A DNA stretch of 38,051 nt from a virus. The stretch lies in the IMG/VR virus record IMGVR_UViG_3300037297_000093, positions 1-38,051 of that record. One strand, 5' to 3'. Positions 9,147 through 37,601 of the stretch are shown here, piece by piece. The notes beneath the pieces are model-generated. The model did not search any database, was not told the origin of the DNA, and was given only the letters and a program-made list of their open reading frames with translations. The translations under genes were made by a program, and so were the position numbers. Position 1 is the stretch's first letter, and each line of letters starts with the position of its first letter.

Positions 9147-9616
9147 ATTATAAATTCGAATATGTAGAAAACAAAACACCAGAACAAATTCAAAAAATGT
9201 TAAACAATCTTAAAAAAGATTCGCCTATTATTTTGAGATTAATACAAAGACGATTGGCTGAAACTGTAATCAGAACGGCTCAAGAAAAATATTTGAATAC
9301 AGCTGGTGGTAAAACTTTGAGATCCAGGGGCGGGACACTTTCAAGCTCTTTGCGCTGGTGGTTTGTTGGTTCAGATATTTTTGTTGGTACTAATTTGGTT
9401 TATGCGGCAATACATGAATATGGTGGAATAATAAGAGCGAAGAACGCGCCTTATTTAGTCTTTTTTTATAATGGACGGTGGTATCGAAAAAAACAAGTTA
9501 CAATACCACAACGTACATATTTAAGGCCGTCAATTAATGAACTTTTTAAAACTAATCAATATCATAGAATAGCTGAATTAACATTAAACCAGGAATTGAA
9601 AAAGAGGTCTGCTTAA
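9143..9616 (+). CDS. Virion morphogenesis protein, gpG/gp10-like
   Basis: This 157-residue protein begins with TTG overlapping the connector stop (TTGA), with AGGCGGGT as ribosome binding site. The core IFVGTNLVYAAIHEYGGIIR, the following aromatic strand, and the closing PQRTYLRPSI match the phage virion morphogenesis / HK97 gp10-like family of neck proteins. In these proteins the GTN-YA-IHEYGG and P-RPYL motifs are hallmarks. It should join the head and tail together with its neighbours. Confidence 0.82.
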   Translation: MNYKFEYVENKTPEQIQKMLNNLKKDSPIILRLIQRRLAETVIRTAQEKYLNTAGGKTLRSRGGTLSSSLRWWFVGSDIFVGTNLVYAAIHEYGGIIRAKNAPYLVFFYNGRWYRKKQVTIPQRTYLRPSINELFKTNQYHRIAELTLNQELKKRSA

Positions 9617-10089
9617 TGGCGTATGAAAGCACGATTGAAAATATAATAAACGCTTTGATGACTTTTTTTGAAAATAATATTGATACTTATCTTGATGCTA
9701 TTACAGAGGAAAAAGACGATAGCATTACTCTTGATTCATTTCGGGAATATGAAAGGGACGACTCAGACCCATATTTAAGAAAAGTTTATCCTTCTGCTCA
9801 GTTTTATTCAACTAATATCATTGATAGATATTTGACAACTGGCAAGAATGAGGTTATCATAACAGCAAATATATTGATGACAATCAAAACAGGGACAGAG
9901 ATTGTCACAAAAATGGACCGATACTGTGAGGCTTTAAGGCAAATGATTAATGATGATGAAAGCTTGAATGGTGGCGCCGAAAAGTTAGGCCCTGAAATTA
10001 CAATCAATCAATTTCCAACCGTCGAAGGAAAAAAAACGGCGCTGGTAACATTAGATATTATTAAGGTTGTGAATCATAAGCAATCTTAG
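9616..10089 (+). CDS. Tail terminator / minor tail protein (probable)
   Basis: The 157-residue product begins with helix IENIINALMTFFENNIDTYL and continues with beta strands separated by a helix (TKMDRYCEALRQMIN). That order is seen in tail terminator proteins of the lambda gpU / HK97 gp10 neighbourhood. No strong motif stands out. The assignment rests mainly on size and on the fixed gene order between neck protein and tail tube. The start ATG shares one base with the previous TAA. Confidence 0.55.
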   Translation: MAYESTIENIINALMTFFENNIDTYLDAITEEKDDSITLDSFREYERDDSDPYLRKVYPSAQFYSTNIIDRYLTTGKNEVIITANILMTIKTGTEIVTKMDRYCEALRQMINDDESLNGGAEKLGPEITINQFPTVEGKKTALVTLDIIKVVNHKQS

Positions 10090-10101: not shown

Positions 10102-11079
10102 ATGAATTATTCAGGACAAGATGCTGTTTTAGAAATTGGGGCACAGTCTGACTTTTCGACGATCGTGGCGCCAACACAGAAACTTGAATTCACAAGCGAG
10201 AATTTAAAATTGAATAAAAAGCCGGTTTCAAGTAATGCTCTTGTAGGTGGTATTACTGTAAATCGAGTTGACTATATGAGTCAAATGATTGATGGCGGGG
10301 CCCAGGGTATTGTACATCCTGATAATATCGGCCTTTTGCTTTCTGCAGCCTTCGGAGCTGAAAGCGCGGTTTCAGCTGTTGGATCCGGGGTCTATACTCA
10401 TCAATTTTCTTGCCTAGCAGGTGGCCCGACAAACAGTTTGCCAAAATTAACTATTACGGTTGACCGAAAAGCCGCAATCTTTGGCTATGTTGGATGCAAG
10501 ATTGACACTCTAAATCTGTCAGCTACTCTTGATGATTATTTACGCTACGGAATTACAATCGTTGGCCGTCATGAGGCTTCTGACACCCTAGAAACTTTGA
10601 GCCAATCAGCATTAAGGCCTTTGCAATTTTCAGACGGTTTGGCAACTTTTGACGGTTCAACCTCTTATGATGTGAGCGACTTCAAATTTGACCTGAATAA
10701 CAATGTTGAAAAAAACCGCTTTGCTATGGATGGAACGAACTATATGCAAGAGCCTGAAGCCCAGGGTCGAGAAATCATGATGACTCTGGAAGTCATGCTT
10801 TCAGCCGATACTAATACAATTCGTGAAAATACTTACAAGGCCGGGGCGTCAATGGATATTGTCGTCACCTTTACGAGTACGGAGGCAATCGCCGGGGCTG
10901 AGTATTACACTTTGACCTTGACGATGAATAATGCCTATTTAATGGATGACCCGAGTTTTCAAATTGCCGGGCCTGAAAGAATAAAGGGAACCTTTAATTT
11001 AAAGGCTACGGACAACGGGACAGACGAACCGATTATCATAACTTTAAAAGATGCAAAAGGGACAAAATATATTACTTAA
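10102..11079 (+). CDS. Major tail tube protein
   Basis: The 325-residue product has features of phage tail tube proteins of the tube_2 type: an N-terminal SGQDAVLEIGAQSDFSTIV, the internal GGITVNRVDYMSQMIDGGAQ, long beta strands, and LDDYLRYGITIVGRH. A strong GGGAGG site precedes the ATG. It lies between the tail terminator and the chaperone pair, as expected. It is longer than minimal tubes and contains two similar-looking halves of beta strands, so a two-domain tube subunit is possible. Confidence 0.82.
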   Translation: MNYSGQDAVLEIGAQSDFSTIVAPTQKLEFTSENLKLNKKPVSSNALVGGITVNRVDYMSQMIDGGAQGIVHPDNIGLLLSAAFGAESAVSAVGSGVYTHQFSCLAGGPTNSLPKLTITVDRKAAIFGYVGCKIDTLNLSATLDDYLRYGITIVGRHEASDTLETLSQSALRPLQFSDGLATFDGSTSYDVSDFKFDLNNNVEKNRFAMDGTNYMQEPEAQGREIMMTLEVMLSADTNTIRENTYKAGASMDIVVTFTSTEAIAGAEYYTLTLTMNNAYLMDDPSFQIAGPERIKGTFNLKATDNGTDEPIIITLKDAKGTKYIT

Positions 11080-21316: not shown

Positions 21317-21673
21317 TTGAGTGAATACAAAGAGGTTAATCTTAACACGATTAATTCAGGTGCAGCGATTGACTTATTTAACGAAGAATTTGGAAAAGTC
21401 ATTGACAACATCATGGACGAAAACACAAAGGCCGATACTGTAAGAGAAATTCAAATCTCTGTCAAAATAAAACCCAATAAAGACAGGTCGGCAGCTTCAA
21501 CACAAATTCAAGTTAAAAGCAAAATGGCTCCTTTAAAGCCGCATGAGCATTTTTTTCACTTTGCTAATGACGGTCACAAAATAAAGGCGCTCACTCACGA
21601 CCCAGGTGTTCAGGATATACCAGGGCTCTTGGATGGTGATCCGAAAATCAAAAATATAAAGGAGGGTATTTGA
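21317..21673 (+). CDS. Conserved phage protein, replication-terminator-like in some annotations
   Basis: The start is TTG 21317 with GAAAGGATG upstream. The 118-residue product begins YKEVNLNTINSGAAIDLFNE and continues with beta strands (REIQISVKIKPNKDRSAAST, QIQVKSKMAPLKP). I recall this pattern from small phage proteins sometimes labelled replication terminator protein, usually followed by the family of the next gene, as here. The label is a memory-based match and the biochemical role is not established from sequence. Confidence 0.5.
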   Translation: MSEYKEVNLNTINSGAAIDLFNEEFGKVIDNIMDENTKADTVREIQISVKIKPNKDRSAASTQIQVKSKMAPLKPHEHFFHFANDGHKIKALTHDPGVQDIPGLLDGDPKIKNIKEGI

Positions 21674-22401
21674 TGGACAATACTTTTGTTGAAGCTGTTG
21701 AAAAATTGGTTTTAAAGTCAACAGAGGTTCAAGAAATTAATGGAGAATTTTATTCTCCTGTACAACTTCACAGAATAAAGGAACATTTTAAACCAGAGTC
21801 ATTAAAAGTGAACACTCTTTCAGGGTTTCTTGATTATATTCATGGTAATCTTGATAAATTAGATTTTGAAAAAGAAGTTGTAATTCACATTGTTAGTTAC
21901 AATAAAGTAATGCTTTTATCAAATCTTGATGATGAGTTATCTAGAGAATGTTATATTCAGGCAATGCCTTTGAATGAAAGCAAAAACTTTGAAAATTGGC
22001 AAAATCAGGAGCAGTTTATTATCAATTTAAACTCTCAATTTGTTGATACTCCTGATAAAAAAGAATTGCTTCAATTTGTTAGTAAAATTGTAGTTAATGA
22101 TGAAAATAGCGTTTCAGATGATGGAATATCGCAAAAAGCAAGCTTGAAAAAGGGATTGTCAGGTTCTTTGACAGAAAAAAAAGAATCTAAATCAATTGTC
22201 AAGTTGGCGCCTTACCGTACTTTTACGGAAATTGAGCAGCCTATTTCAGAATTTCTATTCAGAATGAAAATGGATTCTGATAAAATGCCAGGTCTTGCTT
22301 TGTTTGAGTCAGATGGTAATTCCTGGAAGCTTGATGCAATGGAAAAAATAAGACAATGGATTCTTGATAATATCAAGGTTCAGACTCTTATCATTTGTTA
22401 A
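21673..22401 (+). CDS. Conserved phage early protein, unknown function
   Basis: ATG 21673 has GGAGGG seven bases upstream and overlaps the previous stop; a TTG three bases earlier is possible. The 242-residue product contains VNTLSGFLDYIHGN, EVVIHIVSYNKVMLLSNLDD, LNSQFVDTPDKKELLQFVSK and the well-kept VKLAPYRTFTEIEQPISEFL. This order of motifs is familiar from a widespread phage protein found next to the preceding gene's family. No catalytic residues are evident. It ends just before the gene-free RNA region. Confidence 0.6.
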   Translation: MDNTFVEAVEKLVLKSTEVQEINGEFYSPVQLHRIKEHFKPESLKVNTLSGFLDYIHGNLDKLDFEKEVVIHIVSYNKVMLLSNLDDELSRECYIQAMPLNESKNFENWQNQEQFIINLNSQFVDTPDKKELLQFVSKIVVNDENSVSDDGISQKASLKKGLSGSLTEKKESKSIVKLAPYRTFTEIEQPISEFLFRMKMDSDKMPGLALFESDGNSWKLDAMEKIRQWILDNIKVQTLIIC

Positions 22402-22413
22402 TATATGTATGTG

Positions 22414-22474
22414 TTTGACCGTGAAAATGTGGCTTGCACTAAGGTGTAGTTGGTTCGAATCCAGCCGGTCAAAG
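22414..22474 (+). ncRNA. tRNA-like element 1 (short, no D-arm)
   Basis: TTGACCG (22415-22421) pairs with CGGTCAA (22466-22472) as an acceptor-like stem. A canonical T-arm (GTTGG, loop TTCGAAT, CCAGC at 22449-22465) stacks directly against it. Before that, TGCAC (22435-22439) pairs with GTGTA (22444-22448) around a 4-base loop TAAG. Thirteen unpaired bases stand where a D-arm should be. At 60 bases without a seven-base anticodon loop it cannot be a normal tRNA. Confidence 0.6.
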
Positions 22475-22488
22475 AAAAATCCAACCGT

Positions 22489-22560
22489 AACTGGTCGGCG
22501 GCAATGGTGTTGTGAGTAGGTTCCCCGCCTACATAGGGGGTCACAATTTAGAAACCAGTT
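22489..22560 (+). ncRNA. Structured element with possible H-type pseudoknot
   Basis: AACTGGT (22489-22495) pairs with ACCAGTT (22554-22560). Inside, TTGTGA (22510-22515) pairs with TCACAA (22541-22546), enclosing hairpin GTAGG/CCTAC (22516-22520 and 22528-22532). The hairpin loop holds CCCC (22523-22526), which can pair with GGGG at 22536-22539, forming a pseudoknot. No reading frame is supported here. Confidence 0.5.
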
Positions 22561-22593
22561 TTGAGAGCTCGCCATGATTCATCGCCTGGCATA

Positions 22594-22662
22594 GCTTGGG
22601 TCGTTTAATGGCTAAGACAATAGGGCGCCCTATAAATTCAGGTTCGATTCCTGACCCAGGCA
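22594..22662 (+). tRNA. tRNA-like element 2 with a four-base anticodon loop (not a normal tRNA)
   Basis: GCTTGGG/CCCAGGC forms a seven-pair acceptor stem (22594-22600 and 22655-22661). A D-arm (GTTT/AGAC), a T-arm (TCAGG, TTCGATT, CCTGA at 22638-22654) and the usual connecting bases are in place. The anticodon arm is ATAGG, loop GCGC, CCTAT (22620-22633). The loop has four bases instead of seven, so there is no anticodon and no U33. An upstream GCCTGG (22584-22589) could compete for the acceptor strand. No CCA is encoded. Confidence 0.6.
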
Positions 22663-22672
22663 GCTACCCGTA

Positions 22673-22790
22673 GTAGGTGAAAAAGAGATAAAACCTACAT
22701 GATCGAAGGGGCTTCAATAGTTTTGAGCTTGTTTCTTTTGGAAAAAAAACAAGTAAAGGCCTGTTCTTTACCTGATCAGTAAATTTGAAT
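22673..22790 (+). ncRNA. Run of hairpins in the RNA-rich region
   Basis: Successive perfect short stems are GTAGGT/ACCTAC (22673-22678 and 22693-22698), GAAG/CTTC around 22705-22715, CTTGTTT/AAACAAG (22728-22752) and GTAAAG/CTTTAC (22753-22771). They lie between tRNA-like elements, with no reading frame, and suggest a structured transcript cut into units. Confidence 0.4.
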
Positions 22791-22800
22791 TGGCCAGCTT

Positions 22801-22879
22801 GCCAGTGAGGCCGCAAGGGTAAGGCGGCGCCGTAAGCATCCTGACTAGCTGGATCTCCGGGTCAACGCCGGACACTGGC
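22801..22879 (+). ncRNA. tRNA-like element 4 with aberrant middle arms
   Basis: GCCAGTG (22801-22807) pairs perfectly with CACTGGC (22873-22879). A short D-like arm (GCC/GGC with an AAGGGTAA loop) and a T-arm (TCCGG, GTCAACG, CCGGA at 22856-22872) are present. Between them lie GGCGCCGTAAGC and a 17-base hairpin ATCC...GGAT whose loop centre is CTA. If that hairpin is the anticodon arm, U33 is missing. If it is a class II variable arm, the anticodon arm is too short. Confidence 0.5.
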
Positions 22880-22886
22880 TATTAAA

Positions 22887-22963
22887 ACGGTCGTTGACCG
22901 TTGCGGAATAATCCGCGATCTTAAATAAAATTGATATAGGTTAGGCTTTGCCAGTATCAATTT
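22887..22963 (+). ncRNA. Hairpin trio following tRNA-like element 4
   Basis: ACGGTC/GACCGT with a three-base loop (22887-22901), GCGGA/TCCGC with loop ATAA (22903-22916), and a nine-pair stem AAATTGATA/TATCAATTT (22928-22936 and 22955-22963) enclosing GGC/GCC. The stems are perfect and closely packed. No open frame with a ribosome site covers them. Confidence 0.45.
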
Positions 22964-23031
22964 GTGTGTTAGTAATGAGAATTTTAAACTGATTGAATTC
23001 GATTTAACAAAAGCCAAGTATTTATTCAAAA

Positions 23032-23062
23032 CCCGTCGGAATAGCCACCGGCGGGAATTTTT
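23032..23062 (+). terminator. Terminator at the end of the RNA-rich region
   Basis: CCCGTCGG (23032-23039) pairs with CCGGCGGG (23048-23055), one G-U pair, followed by AATTTTT. It ends the gene-free stretch 22402-23079 just before the ribosome site of the next gene. This supports the stretch being transcribed as RNA in its own right. Confidence 0.75.
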
Positions 23063-23079
23063 AAGAAAGAGGGATTTTT

Positions 23080-23655
23080 ATGGAAATGAAAAAATTAGAT
23101 GTAATGAATAAGATTTCAAAACTTACCGAAGGTAATCCAGGTGCTATGGCTGCTTTATGTGAATTAAACACAATTAGTTATTCATATTTAGAGTATCTTG
23201 AAAATTTTGGTATTAAAGGAACAGATATCTATATTTTATGGAATGATATTTGTGATAGAGATACTAAAAAAACATCCATGTTAATTAATGCAGCTCGTGA
23301 AGGAATATTAAAAATTGATGTTTTAAAAGATGCTTGTTCACGTCAAGATCGATCAGGAAAACAATTAATTGACTTTGAAAATATAATCAATCAATTACCT
23401 AAAACTGATAAGTTAATTATCGAAATTCCTGAAGAGGTTTCAAACGAGATTAAAAATGATCTTGGTTTTGATAATCCTGGTGAATTTGTAAAAACTTTTA
23501 TATTAATATTTCTTAATATAAAAGGTCTTGAAATGCTAAAATTTTCAAAGTGGATTAATTCTGAAAAAGAAAAGATTAATCCTTCTAAGTTTTTTTCTTC
23601 TCTAATGAAATATGCTGCTAAAATTTTAGACATGGCCGCAGAAAAAAAGGAATAA
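23080..23655 (+). CDS. Conserved phage protein, unknown function
   Basis: The ATG at 23080 has AGAAAGAGGGA upstream. The 191-residue product has an N-terminal helical part with ISKLTEGNPGAMAALCEL and YLENFGIKGTDIYILWNDICD, and a hydrophobic middle that is probably a buried helix (FVKTFILIFLNIKGLEML). The N-terminal pattern recurs in phage proteins of unknown role as far as I recall. It begins the replication and recombination half. Confidence 0.6.
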   Translation: MEMKKLDVMNKISKLTEGNPGAMAALCELNTISYSYLEYLENFGIKGTDIYILWNDICDRDTKKTSMLINAAREGILKIDVLKDACSRQDRSGKQLIDFENIINQLPKTDKLIIEIPEEVSNEIKNDLGFDNPGEFVKTFILIFLNIKGLEMLKFSKWINSEKEKINPSKFFSSLMKYAAKILDMAAEKKE

Positions 23656-24094: not shown

Positions 24095-24133
24095 TTAAAA
24101 GAGACGTTTTCCCTTTTTTGGCGGGAAGGGGTG

Positions 24134-24150
24134 AACGCCTCCGAAGCGTT
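24134..24150 (+). other. Hairpin preceding the terminator
   Basis: AACGC (24134-24138) pairs with GCGTT (24146-24150) around CTCCGAA. It stacks directly on the terminator stem that follows at 24151, forming part of the folded stretch 24095-24316. Confidence 0.5.
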
Positions 24151-24184
24151 ACCGGTCCGCCGCCTTTTATCGGGCCGGTTTTTT
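24151..24184 (+). terminator. Intrinsic terminator before tRNA-like element 5
   Basis: ACCGGTCC (24151-24158) pairs with GGGCCGGT (24172-24179), one G-U, and runs into TTTTTT. Element 5 begins at the very next base, so the tRNA-like RNA must be made by read-through or from a promoter inside this stretch. Confidence 0.78.
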
Positions 24185-24267
24185 GCCTGGGATGGGTCGC
24201 AGTTGGTTAGCGCCACCGCCGGAGAAAGACCGGCGGGAGATCGTCGGTTCAAATCCGACCCCGGGCA
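24185..24267 (+). tRNA. tRNA-like element 5 with a seven-pair anticodon stem and no U33
   Basis: Acceptor GCCTGGG/CCCGGGC (24185-24191 and 24260-24266), a D-arm with canonical loop AGTTGGTTA, and a T-arm GTCGG, TTCAAAT, CCGAC (24243-24259) are clear. The anticodon arm has a perfect seven-pair stem CCGCCGG/CCGGCGG with loop AGAAAGA (24216-24236). The base at position 33 is G, not U, and the nominal anticodon would be AAA. The D-arm starts late, with extra bases after the acceptor. It looks like a tRNA changed in its decoding arm. A hairpin CCGGT/ACCGG follows at 24274-24286. Confidence 0.65.
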
Positions 24268-24316
24268 GTTTTTCCGGTGTTACCGGATACAGTCAAATAT
24301 TTGGAGGTGTTTGATA

Positions 24317-25378
24317 ATGAATAATCAAATCGTTCCGGCGGTAATCAATACCGCTATTCAAAAACAAAAGATTGATATAAACAACGTCAATCTAATTCTA
24401 CCGACCCAAACCCTGGGGTCAATAATCGGCGAATTCGACCAAGTTTCAATGGAAGTTGTCACAATATCAAGTAATCCAGTAGACCAAGAAGTATTTGACC
24501 TGGGAAAAGGTCAAAAGTGTTTTTCAAAAGTCGCCTTGTTAAAAATAGGAAACGCCCTTGGTATCCAGTGGGATCCGAACACAACGGGAATAATTGAAAG
24601 AGGTGAAAACTTTTGTAGAGCAAGGGCGACCGGAGCAATAAAAAAACCAAATGGAGAATGGATTTCCATTACTGAAGAAAAAGAGATTGACCTTTTGGCT
24701 ATTGAGGAAGAACAGAGAATAAAAGCAGAAGAGTCAGCCGAAAAAGGTATGATTTCAGAATGGAAAACATCACAAAGTGGTAAAAATTATCCTGTTTTTG
24801 AGCCTTTCAAATCTGAAGCTGAAAAACAAAAACACATTGAAATGTCAGTCAGAAAGGCAGTTCTTCCTTATCGAAAATTCAAAGCTGAAAGAGCAATGAC
24901 AGGAGCAAAAGAAAGAGTCATTAAGGCTCTTGTTGCTATCAAGGGGACTTATACAGACAATGAACTTTCCAGGCCGTTCGCTTTTCCTCGAATAATTACA
25001 GATGTTTCAAAAATGCTTAACGACCCAGGATTAAGGCAACACGCAATAAACAAAATGACTGGTTCAGTCAGTTCCATTTTTGGAAGCTCAAGCCCTGATA
25101 CGATGCGGAATGTATCTGAAATTAAAGAGGATATTATTATTGATAATCCAGAGGATGAGATTGACTTTGGAGAAGATGAAATACAAACACCAATAGACCA
25201 TGAAGCTGAAGAAATGAAACACAAAATTTTAGAATGGGCTCACTCTGGCATATTCTCAGAGGAAACAAACAACAAACTTTTTGAAGAGGTTAATAACCCC
25301 GAAGTAACAAAAGAAAGATTGAAAAAGTTAGTTGAAGGATGCCAGAAAGCCTATGATAAAAAGCAGTCTCAAGGATGA
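24317..25378 (+). CDS. Conserved phage DNA-metabolism protein, unknown function
   Basis: The real start is ATG 24317 with TTGGAGGTG upstream; the frame stays open to 24131 only by passing through the tRNA-like element. The 353-residue product has a beta-rich core (QEVFDLGKGQKCFSKVALLK, ALGIQWDPN, RARATGAIKKPNGEW) and the helix HIEMSVRKAVLPYRKFKAERA, followed by a variable acidic tail. I recall this core from a common phage protein near recombinases, but its function is unclear. Position before an SbcD-SbcC gene suggests DNA repair or recombination. A single-strand annealing role is possible but not shown. Confidence 0.6.
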   Translation: MNNQIVPAVINTAIQKQKIDINNVNLILPTQTLGSIIGEFDQVSMEVVTISSNPVDQEVFDLGKGQKCFSKVALLKIGNALGIQWDPNTTGIIERGENFCRARATGAIKKPNGEWISITEEKEIDLLAIEEEQRIKAEESAEKGMISEWKTSQSGKNYPVFEPFKSEAEKQKHIEMSVRKAVLPYRKFKAERAMTGAKERVIKALVAIKGTYTDNELSRPFAFPRIITDVSKMLNDPGLRQHAINKMTGSVSSIFGSSSPDTMRNVSEIKEDIIIDNPEDEIDFGEDEIQTPIDHEAEEMKHKILEWAHSGIFSEETNNKLFEEVNNPEVTKERLKKLVEGCQKAYDKKQSQG

Positions 25379-36430: not shown

Positions 36431-37601
36431 TTATCTATGCACTTCGAGTCACAGCTTTAATCTAAGTTCTGGCTCAGTATCTTCGGGAAAAACATTTATT
36501 CAAGTTTTGCGCTGGTTCAAGCATATCTATGATGTACCAAACAATTCACTTTTATTAATGTCCGGAAAAACTTCAGAAAGCCTTTATGATAATGTCATAA
36601 GGGATTTAGTAGCTTTAAGGCCTGGCGATATTAAACACCAGCGGAGCCCGCAAAGAGTTAAAGTATTATCAAAAAATATAGAGATAGCTTGTGCCGATGC
36701 TTCAAACGAATCATCCTGGGGAAAAATTCAAGGTAAAACTGTTTTCGGCTGGTTAGCCGATGAAGTGACAAGGCATCCAAGTAATTTTGTCAAAATGGCT
36801 CAAAGCCGCTGCAGGGGGCAAGGTAAAGTCTGGCCGAAATTCTGGACTTGTAACCCGGAGAATTCTGAACATTATATCCGGAAAGATTACATACTCAATA
36901 AAAATCTTGATTTAAAACTTTGGGAATTCACTTTTGACGACAATCCGGTTTTATCCGTGGAATATAAAAACGAATTAAAGAATTCTTATTCAGGTGTATT
37001 TTATGACAGGTTTATTCTTGGGAAATGGGTAAACGCCGAGGGTGTTGTCTATCCTGATTTTAATCAAGACATTCATGTAATCGCGCCGGTCAATCCGCCT
37101 AAAGATTATCAAACTTATCGCGCCATTGACTTCGGTTTTAAAAATCCTTTTGTTTGTCTGTTTGCCTTTGTTGATAATGACGGTCGAATAATAATTTATG
37201 ATGAACATTATGAATCTGAAAAACTTCTTGAATATCATGCAGAAAAAATAAAACAAAGAGGCAGGCTTGACGCCTACACAATAGCAGACCATGACGCACA
37301 GGACAGGCATGAGCTTGACTCTTTTGGTATTCCATCAGCCCCGGCACAAAAAGAAGTAATTTTGGGCTTGCAATCTGTACAAAAAAGGCTTAAGATACAA
37401 GCGGACGGGAAACCGCGCCTTTTTATTTGTGCTAATTGCATTAATACCATTCGTGAATTTAAAATTTATGAGTGGGAGGAAAACAAGGAAGGCAAATTGA
37501 ACAAAGAAGAGCCGAAAAAAATCAATGATCACGCCATGGATGCCTTGAGATATCTTGTAATGGCCGTTGATTATGGCGGGGGCGGTGCTGATTGGGTGTA
37601 A
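36405..37601 (+). CDS. terL: Terminase large subunit
   Basis: The 398-residue product has an ATPase part with Walker A GSVSSGKTF (23-31) and a Walker B ending WLADE (Asp119, Glu120), and a nuclease part beginning with AIDFGFKNP (Asp242). DHDAQDRHELDS and the closing NDHAMDALRYLVMAV carry further acidic residues for metal binding. Short length and this motif order resemble PBSX-type large terminases. It pumps DNA through the portal encoded next, whose start overlaps its last codons. Confidence 0.93.
   Translation: MSLSKKQIDYLCTSSHSFNLSSGSVSSGKTFIQVLRWFKHIYDVPNNSLLLMSGKTSESLYDNVIRDLVALRPGDIKHQRSPQRVKVLSKNIEIACADASNESSWGKIQGKTVFGWLADEVTRHPSNFVKMAQSRCRGQGKVWPKFWTCNPENSEHYIRKDYILNKNLDLKLWEFTFDDNPVLSVEYKNELKNSYSGVFYDRFILGKWVNAEGVVYPDFNQDIHVIAPVNPPKDYQTYRAIDFGFKNPFVCLFAFVDNDGRIIIYDEHYESEKLLEYHAEKIKQRGRLDAYTIADHDAQDRHELDSFGIPSAPAQKEVILGLQSVQKRLKIQADGKPRLFICANCINTIREFKIYEWEENKEGKLNKEEPKKINDHAMDALRYLVMAVDYGGGGADWV

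Follow-up and report, generated by a model that had tools for sequence, protein, structure and literature searches.

tRNA-like units without a decoding anticodon loop, and a conserved RNA domain, in a gene-free stretch of a tailed-phage genome

What role might be played in a phage by RNAs that are folded like tRNAs and lack the loop with which a tRNA decodes? The question is raised by a locus in a 38-kb tailed-phage record, which bears portal, major capsid, tape measure and terminase genes and was analysed at its full length of 38,051 nucleotides (the window). Between the genes at 21670-22401 and 23080-23655, the 678 bases at 22402-23079 contain no supported open reading frame, as had been noted in a first-pass annotation. 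That annotation regarded the stretch as a purposeful RNA locus rather than a set of decaying tRNA genes. This reading is assessed here from the anatomy of the individual units, from their relatives in other phages and from their likeness to known RNAs.

The locus and units A, B and E

The gene preceding the locus belongs to the phrog_1029 family, relatives of which are found in Firmicutes phages, and unit A begins 13 nt 3' of its stop codon (Table 1). The phrog_997-phrog_1029 order recurs in the viral record G063 and also, per their annotation, in phages AP45 and Hayley. Genes for phrog_13782 and for an SbcC-like protein sit 3' of the RNA locus. The product of the 23080-23655 gene resembles a protein of Bacteroides phage BS-TP1 over its N-terminal 106 aa (39%), and in that phage approximately 1 kb separates the counterpart gene from an RtcB-like tRNA ligase gene downstream. 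The flanking proteins alone revealed no close relatives of the window, and no DNA similarity to the locus was detected among annotated phages.

Table 1. Features of the RNA locus and its surroundings (window coordinates)
Feature	Position	Strand	Basis or remarks
phrog_997 ('replication terminator') gene	21317..21673	+	Partner of phrog_1029
phrog_1029 family gene	21670..22401	+	E 3.3e-61; family of unknown function; upstream of the locus
tRNA-like unit A	22414..22473	+	Rfam tRNA model; acceptor and T-arm scan
Domain C	22489..22560	+	Read directly from the sequence; closed by AACTGGT/ACCAGTT, inner TTGTGA/TCACAA
tRNA-like unit B	22594..22662	+	Rfam tRNA model
Conserved domain D	22801..22879	+	Homologues in nine viral contigs and two bacterial assemblies; model R1; covariation
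Intrinsic-terminator-like hairpin	23032..23062	+	CCCGTCGG...CCGGCGGG then AATTTTT; consensus match only
phrog_13782 gene	24131..25378	+	ORF opens at 24131; ATG 24318 with ribosome-binding site
tRNA-like unit E	24185..24267	+	Strict acceptor and T-arm scan

At least three tRNA-like folds with canonical acceptor and T-arms had been claimed for the locus. Two of them, A and B, are canonical in this respect; the third, D, is cloverleaf-shaped and conserved, but its T-like loop reads GUCAACG. A 7-bp acceptor and a 5-bp T-arm with a TTCRANY loop are present by sequence in A, B and a further unit, E, which the first-pass annotation had missed. D has GUC instead, and both acceptor strands are present in all four. 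The acceptor of A extends to 8 bp (TTTGACCG/CGGTCAAA); there is no D-stem, leaving the acceptor and the T-arm (GTTGG-TTCGAAT-CCAGC), and where the anticodon arm would be, five base pairs close a loop of four nucleotides (TGCAC-TAAG-GTGTA). In B, the acceptor (GCTTGGG/CCCAGGC) is followed by A73 and no CCA, the T-arm is TCAGG-TTCGATT-CCTGA, and the D-arm is normal, with GG; its anticodon arm (22620-22633, ATAGG-GCGC-CCTAT) is a 14-nt perfect palindrome that again leaves a loop of only 4 nt. E combines the acceptor GCCTGGG/CCCGGGC with A73, the D-loop AGTTGGTTA, the T-arm GTCGG-TTCAAAT-CCGAC and a 7-bp anticodon stem (CCGCCGG/CCGGCGG) around the loop AGAAAGA. The observation that no unit has a normal 7-nt anticodon loop with U33 was thus borne out for A and B, and E lacks one too.

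The covariance-model tRNA search that had been suggested as a check separates the units. With the Rfam tRNA model, B scores 46.5 bits (E 1.1e-8), above the cut-off of 29, while A (22415-22473) stays below it at 21.1 bits; E, the weakest unit by model score, went unreported when the window was searched. ARAGORN called no tRNA in the window, B included, and neither ARAGORN nor Rfam gave a tmRNA. A strict scan requiring both a T-arm and a complete 7-bp acceptor picked out A and B in the 678-nt locus; among 3000 dinucleotide shuffles of the locus, one had a single unit and none had two, the criteria having been set post hoc, with the locus already seen.

E differs in its setting. A strong GC terminator-like hairpin with a T-run (24150-24184) ends 0-1 nt 5' of it, so that E would be transcribed only through read-through or from a promoter of its own. 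It lies within the longest form of the phrog_13782 reading frame; the true start of that gene is likely to be the ATG at 24318, which would place E outside it.

The remainder of the locus is less distinctive. Domain C contains a candidate H-type pseudoknot (22516-22539, GTAGG-TTCCCCG-CCTAC-ATA-GGGG), the pairing of which is possible and for which, as for the domain itself, no homologue turned up. The terminator described by the first-pass annotation was recovered as a consensus match, with a stem at 23032-23055 of eight pairs, seven of them G-C, and a T-run after it. The many perfect hairpins also described there proved weak as an argument: across the locus, 150-nt windows fold with z-scores of approximately -1.6 to +1.25, which is nothing unusual in this genome, and hairpin density was dropped as evidence. 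The entire 678 nt folds better than all of 20 shuffles (z -2.46). Elsewhere in the window, the folding z-score reaches its extreme of -4.7 at 37351-37500, close to where the terminase gene ends.

Domain D and its relatives in other phages

D begins with a 7-bp acceptor-like stem (GCCAGTG/CACTGGC), followed by AG, a hairpin P2 (GCCGC/GCGGC, 22810-22828), a variable part (22829-22855) and a 5-bp T-like arm (22856-22872, TCCGG-GTCAACG-CCGGA) with its GUC loop in place of the canonical TTCRANY. Members of the family open with a stem of 7-8 bp, in which covarying outer pairs are added to CCAGTG/CACTGG; AG, a short hairpin and a middle come next, and a CCGG-GUC(N)3-4-CCGG hairpin then stacks immediately on the 3' strand of the opening stem. 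These parts match, in turn, the acceptor, positions 8-9, D-arm, anticodon region and T-arm of a tRNA. The middle ranges from a few nt (locus L146) to approximately 80 nt (L147), and the whole element from approximately 52 to 130 nt. The sister loci L147 and L150 have a nearly identical structured frame around D and differ in its middle. An encoded ACCA follows the acceptor strand of D in L146, L149 and L168.

The family was reached through a phrog_1029 profile, which led to contig L020 (record G008) with two short DNA matches to the locus in the same order. From these the search pattern CCGGGTCN{2,4}CCGGACACTGG was taken; a pattern for the 5' half alone, CCAGTGAGGCCGNAAGNG, gave mostly chance matches. 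In IMG/VR the search pattern had nine matches, every one with the upstream stem-closing partner CAGTGAG. Among the genomes of 85,000 bacterial and archaeal species, by contrast, the partner strand was present in 2 of the 50 matches listed. A covariance model (R1), built from the D homologues and the window, recovers all of them, and on 391 Clostridia genomes it found only the seed genome and nothing in the 390 others. Judged by this distribution in sequenced genomes, D is a rare phage RNA. No Rfam 15 family matched D at any threshold tried, in the window or in the relatives. Hammerhead- or HDV-type ribozymes, group I or II intron pieces and RNase P RNA were considered as identities for D and set aside: its core letters do not fit any of these RNAs, and the corresponding Rfam models gave no match.

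Compensatory changes in related phages, which had been proposed as a further check, are seen in D. Its two outermost acceptor pairs vary on both sides (A-U/G-C and A-U/U-A), and the share of cells that pair, 95.4%, drops to 21-38% once the partner is slid, in a set of ten sequences from about six lineages, which is few and in which kinship inflates the counts. The D-arm-like hairpin changes from GCCG/CGGC to CGGC/GCCG between lineages, as established by reading rather than by a tool's count. The inner acceptor and T-like letters are invariant in this set; that invariance was partly forced by the pattern, outside which the letters of the 5' strand lay.

D or tRNA-like units adjoin phrog_1029 in the window and in G008, G015 and G063. 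G063 has phrog_997 first, then phrog_1029 (of which the N-terminal half is recognised), then D, and after D a pair of tRNA-like units (9492-9578 and 9584-9722). The phrog_1029 gene of G008 is preceded by a normal tRNA-Met, D and an A-type unit, and a 123-nt tRNA-like unit sits just 3' of it; a homologous 123-nt unit and a second unit both lie 3' of phrog_1029 in G015. This syntenic G008/G015 pair has kept its fold through six both-sided pair changes, which implies that the remodelled anticodon arms are maintained rather than decaying. A pattern search for further homologues of the long G008/G015 unit returned 11 matches, only those two being real. A run of CTAAGGTG letters common to A and a G015 unit, with a chance probability roughly estimated at 5%, was set aside as evidence. 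The units appear to be confined to a subset of the phages bearing phrog_1029, because 77 of 80 such loci (L028-L099) have no strict acceptor and T-arm unit near the gene.

D is also found in other surroundings. In the assembly L169 (Ca. Aegiribacteria) it lies 3' of phrog_13782 and an SbcC-like gene, both families which follow the locus in the window too. In L168 it lies just 5' of the terminase small subunit gene, as it does by sequence in the sister loci L146 and L149; in L146 it is an element of approximately 52 nt right before that gene. The two sister prophages differ directly 5' of the terminase small subunit gene, where approximately 165 nt with a CCA-ending tRNA-like unit 3' of D are present in L149 (505-620) and missing from L146. 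One contig bearing D, L140, also carries a type-P5 twister ribozyme at 10780-10860 (46.2 bits, above cut-off). More generally, about 10 of 26 tRNA-model matches in 51 related phage records appear by eye to have no normal anticodon loop. A phage with a terminase 60% identical has, on the minus strand at L010 (G001:17520-17592), another tRNA-like unit (21.3 bits), the anticodon arm of which is abnormal and which shows no detectable synteny.

Known RNAs of similar shape

The closest known RNAs appear to be rnaC and rnaD of phage T4 and sRNA2 of the Pseudomonas phage PAK_P3. To our knowledge, the role of rnaC and rnaD has stood unexplained since the 1970s. The function of these stable RNAs is described as unknown (PMC3014915, PMC9697503, PMC4933390), and both have been detected by Northern blot (PMC9697503). 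They lie at the end of the T4 tRNA cluster and are also called species 1 or band C RNA (rnaC) and species 2 or band D RNA (rnaD).

The 3' 93 nt of rnaC are a tRNA-like domain with an acceptor, a T-arm with TTCGAAT and, replacing the anticodon arm, a 10-bp arm with the loop CGUCAA. This domain, which is retained within the stable RNA, differs from that of an Enterobacter phage by seven both-sided pair changes. In the public record of Enterobacter phage vB_Ecl_id4496 (L235:304-398) the homologue is annotated as tRNA-Met, despite having no anticodon loop. A, B, E and the G008/G015 units resemble rnaC in joining a tRNA-like acceptor and T domain to a non-decoding middle arm.

D is closer in appearance to rnaD, the frame of which is invariant and the middle hypervariable. 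A CCGG-GUCGCUA-CCGG hairpin in rnaD is closed by A-U and, in one relative, by G-C. D and rnaD share the CCGG-GUC-CCGG hairpin, the constant frame and the variable middle, and the T4 order tRNA, rnaD, rnaC resembles the G008 order tRNA, D, A-type unit. They differ in that the hairpin is at the 5' end of rnaD and on the 3' side of D. Applied to T4, R1 gave no significant match (rnaD 5.6 bits, E 2.1, through the shared hairpin only), and the resemblance is therefore treated as a likeness and not as demonstrated homology.

PAK_P3 sRNA2 lies between two phage tRNAs, is strongly expressed late and contains a T-loop stretch (PMC4933390). By eye it can be read as an acceptor (GCTGTGT/ACACAGC) around a T-arm (GAGG-TTCGATT-CCTC), the same shape as the units described here in a phage with a different host and different genes; the strict scan misses it because of one T-stem mismatch. 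Ordinary phage tRNAs are alike in their acceptor, D and T arms, with B even above the Rfam cut-off, but possess the 7-nt U33 anticodon loop that A, B and E lack. The tRNA-like domain of tmRNA and the 3' tRNA-like structures of plant viruses are likewise acceptor and T-arm halves that do not decode, the latter being found at the end of an RNA genome, unlike the units here.

Taken with its homologues, the G008/G015 pair and the same pattern in T4 rnaC support the claim of a purposeful locus as far as D is concerned. D recurs in unrelated phages with both-sided changes in its outer acceptor pairs and a free middle, and its decay from a tRNA gene is unlikely. The same claim is less secure for A and B, which like E have no proven homologue. 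The intactness of their stems, on which the first-pass annotation relied, is a weaker argument than was stated, because the search that finds the units already asks, in part, for acceptor and T arms that are intact. A, B and E might on that account be remnants of former phage tRNA genes in which these arms have survived by chance, with D a separate RNA; phage tRNA genes do come and go, as the presence of one unit in only one of the sister prophages illustrates. Such decay is nonetheless improbable, given that all three units in the window retain every acceptor and T pair and all three have lost the anticodon loop, and that the G008/G015 pair and T4 rnaC hold their altered arms through compensatory changes.

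The whole stretch might alternatively form one large ornate RNA, a scaffold or cage of the GOLLD and ROOL style in which the tRNA-like units are domains. Rfam gave no match to GOLLD or ROOL (which we take to be RF02032 and RF03087) in the window at E up to 10, nor was one seen in the D loci. These large non-coding phage RNAs occur near tRNAs and have hypervariable linkers (PMC12286853), and the locus is similar in size, phage origin, nearness to tRNA-like units and possession of a hypervariable segment. The fold of the locus as a whole and the nearly invariant frame around D in L147 and L150 point in the same direction. Against this, D is small in comparison, the order of units varies among phages, and in L146 D is a short element just before the terminase gene, all of which makes a single ornate RNA very improbable.

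Possible roles of the RNAs

The leading explanation, a tentative one which falls a little short of even likelihood, is that the locus produces stable, processed, non-decoding tRNA-like RNAs of the T4 rnaC and rnaD kind, which would engage in trans enzymes that recognise the acceptor or elbow. The units would be transcribed with or behind phrog_1029 genes, ending at the terminator at 23032-23062, and their acceptor ends may be trimmed by host RNase P, RNase Z and the CCA-adding enzyme to leave RNAs that are probably stable. At the sequence level, the half comprising the acceptor, the T-arm and mostly the D-arm (the tRNA elbow) is kept and the anticodon half is dropped or remodelled, so that the RNAs are unable to decode. 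In D, selection appears to have held the acceptor and T half nearly letter by letter while leaving the middle free. A kept acceptor and T half with a free middle makes it most likely that action is in trans, perhaps by occupying processing, modification, charging or acceptor-directed toxin enzymes.

Transcripts in mitochondria are punctuated by tRNAs, and the units here could similarly be cut by RNase P and RNase Z merely to free the RNAs between them (domain C and the D stretch) or to separate mRNAs. A approximates a minimal RNase P substrate, consisting of acceptor and T-arm, and begins very close to a stop codon; the D of G008 lies between a normal tRNA-Met and an A-type unit; and several phage and host RNAs other than tRNAs are known RNase P substrates (PMC11143913). 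Punctuation as the sole purpose is fairly unlikely, since D has a cloverleaf-like shape of its own and letter-by-letter conservation beyond the needs of a cutting signal, D-arms are retained in B, E and several relatives, and the tRNA-like part of T4 rnaC stays in the stable RNA. The suggestion that the units are substrates for host tRNA processing, made in the first-pass annotation, fits best as a step in their production rather than as their entire function.

That annotation also proposed decoys. RNAs of this kind could soak up or inhibit tRNA-directed host defences, such as nucleases or nucleotidyl- or pyrophosphate-transferring toxins acting at the acceptor end or elbow. Phage tRNAs with mutated anticodon loops have been proposed to withstand anticodon nucleases (PMC10264068); the usual cut site is missing from the units here, and the presence of several differing units per phage would suit a sponge. 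An anticodon nuclease cannot be baited without an anticodon loop, however, so a decoy function is plausible only for defences directed at the acceptor end or elbow. That D is kept so strictly in phages with differing hosts suits a general partner more than an arms race, and a decoy role is on balance quite unlikely.

Returning to non-decoding RNAs that act in trans, a wider proposal may be considered, possible but appreciably less than evenly likely: that D, A, B and E represent a widespread and unrecognised class of phage RNAs, anticodon-less, with a constant acceptor and elbow half and a free middle, which act on host tRNA-handling enzymes and of which T4 rnaC and rnaD and PAK_P3 sRNA2 would be the members already seen by experiment. 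If the class is real, an anatomy in common emerges for a known group of phage RNAs that had lacked an explanation, and calls of 'pseudo-tRNA', or mistaken calls of tRNA-Met as in the one Enterobacter phage record, would be hiding such units. The D family makes the T4 puzzle concrete, as one of phage tRNA mimics minus decoding plus whatever processing, charging or elbow-binding enzymes see. It supplies a search model with which further members may be found, and the function of such RNAs thereby becomes testable, in T4 included.
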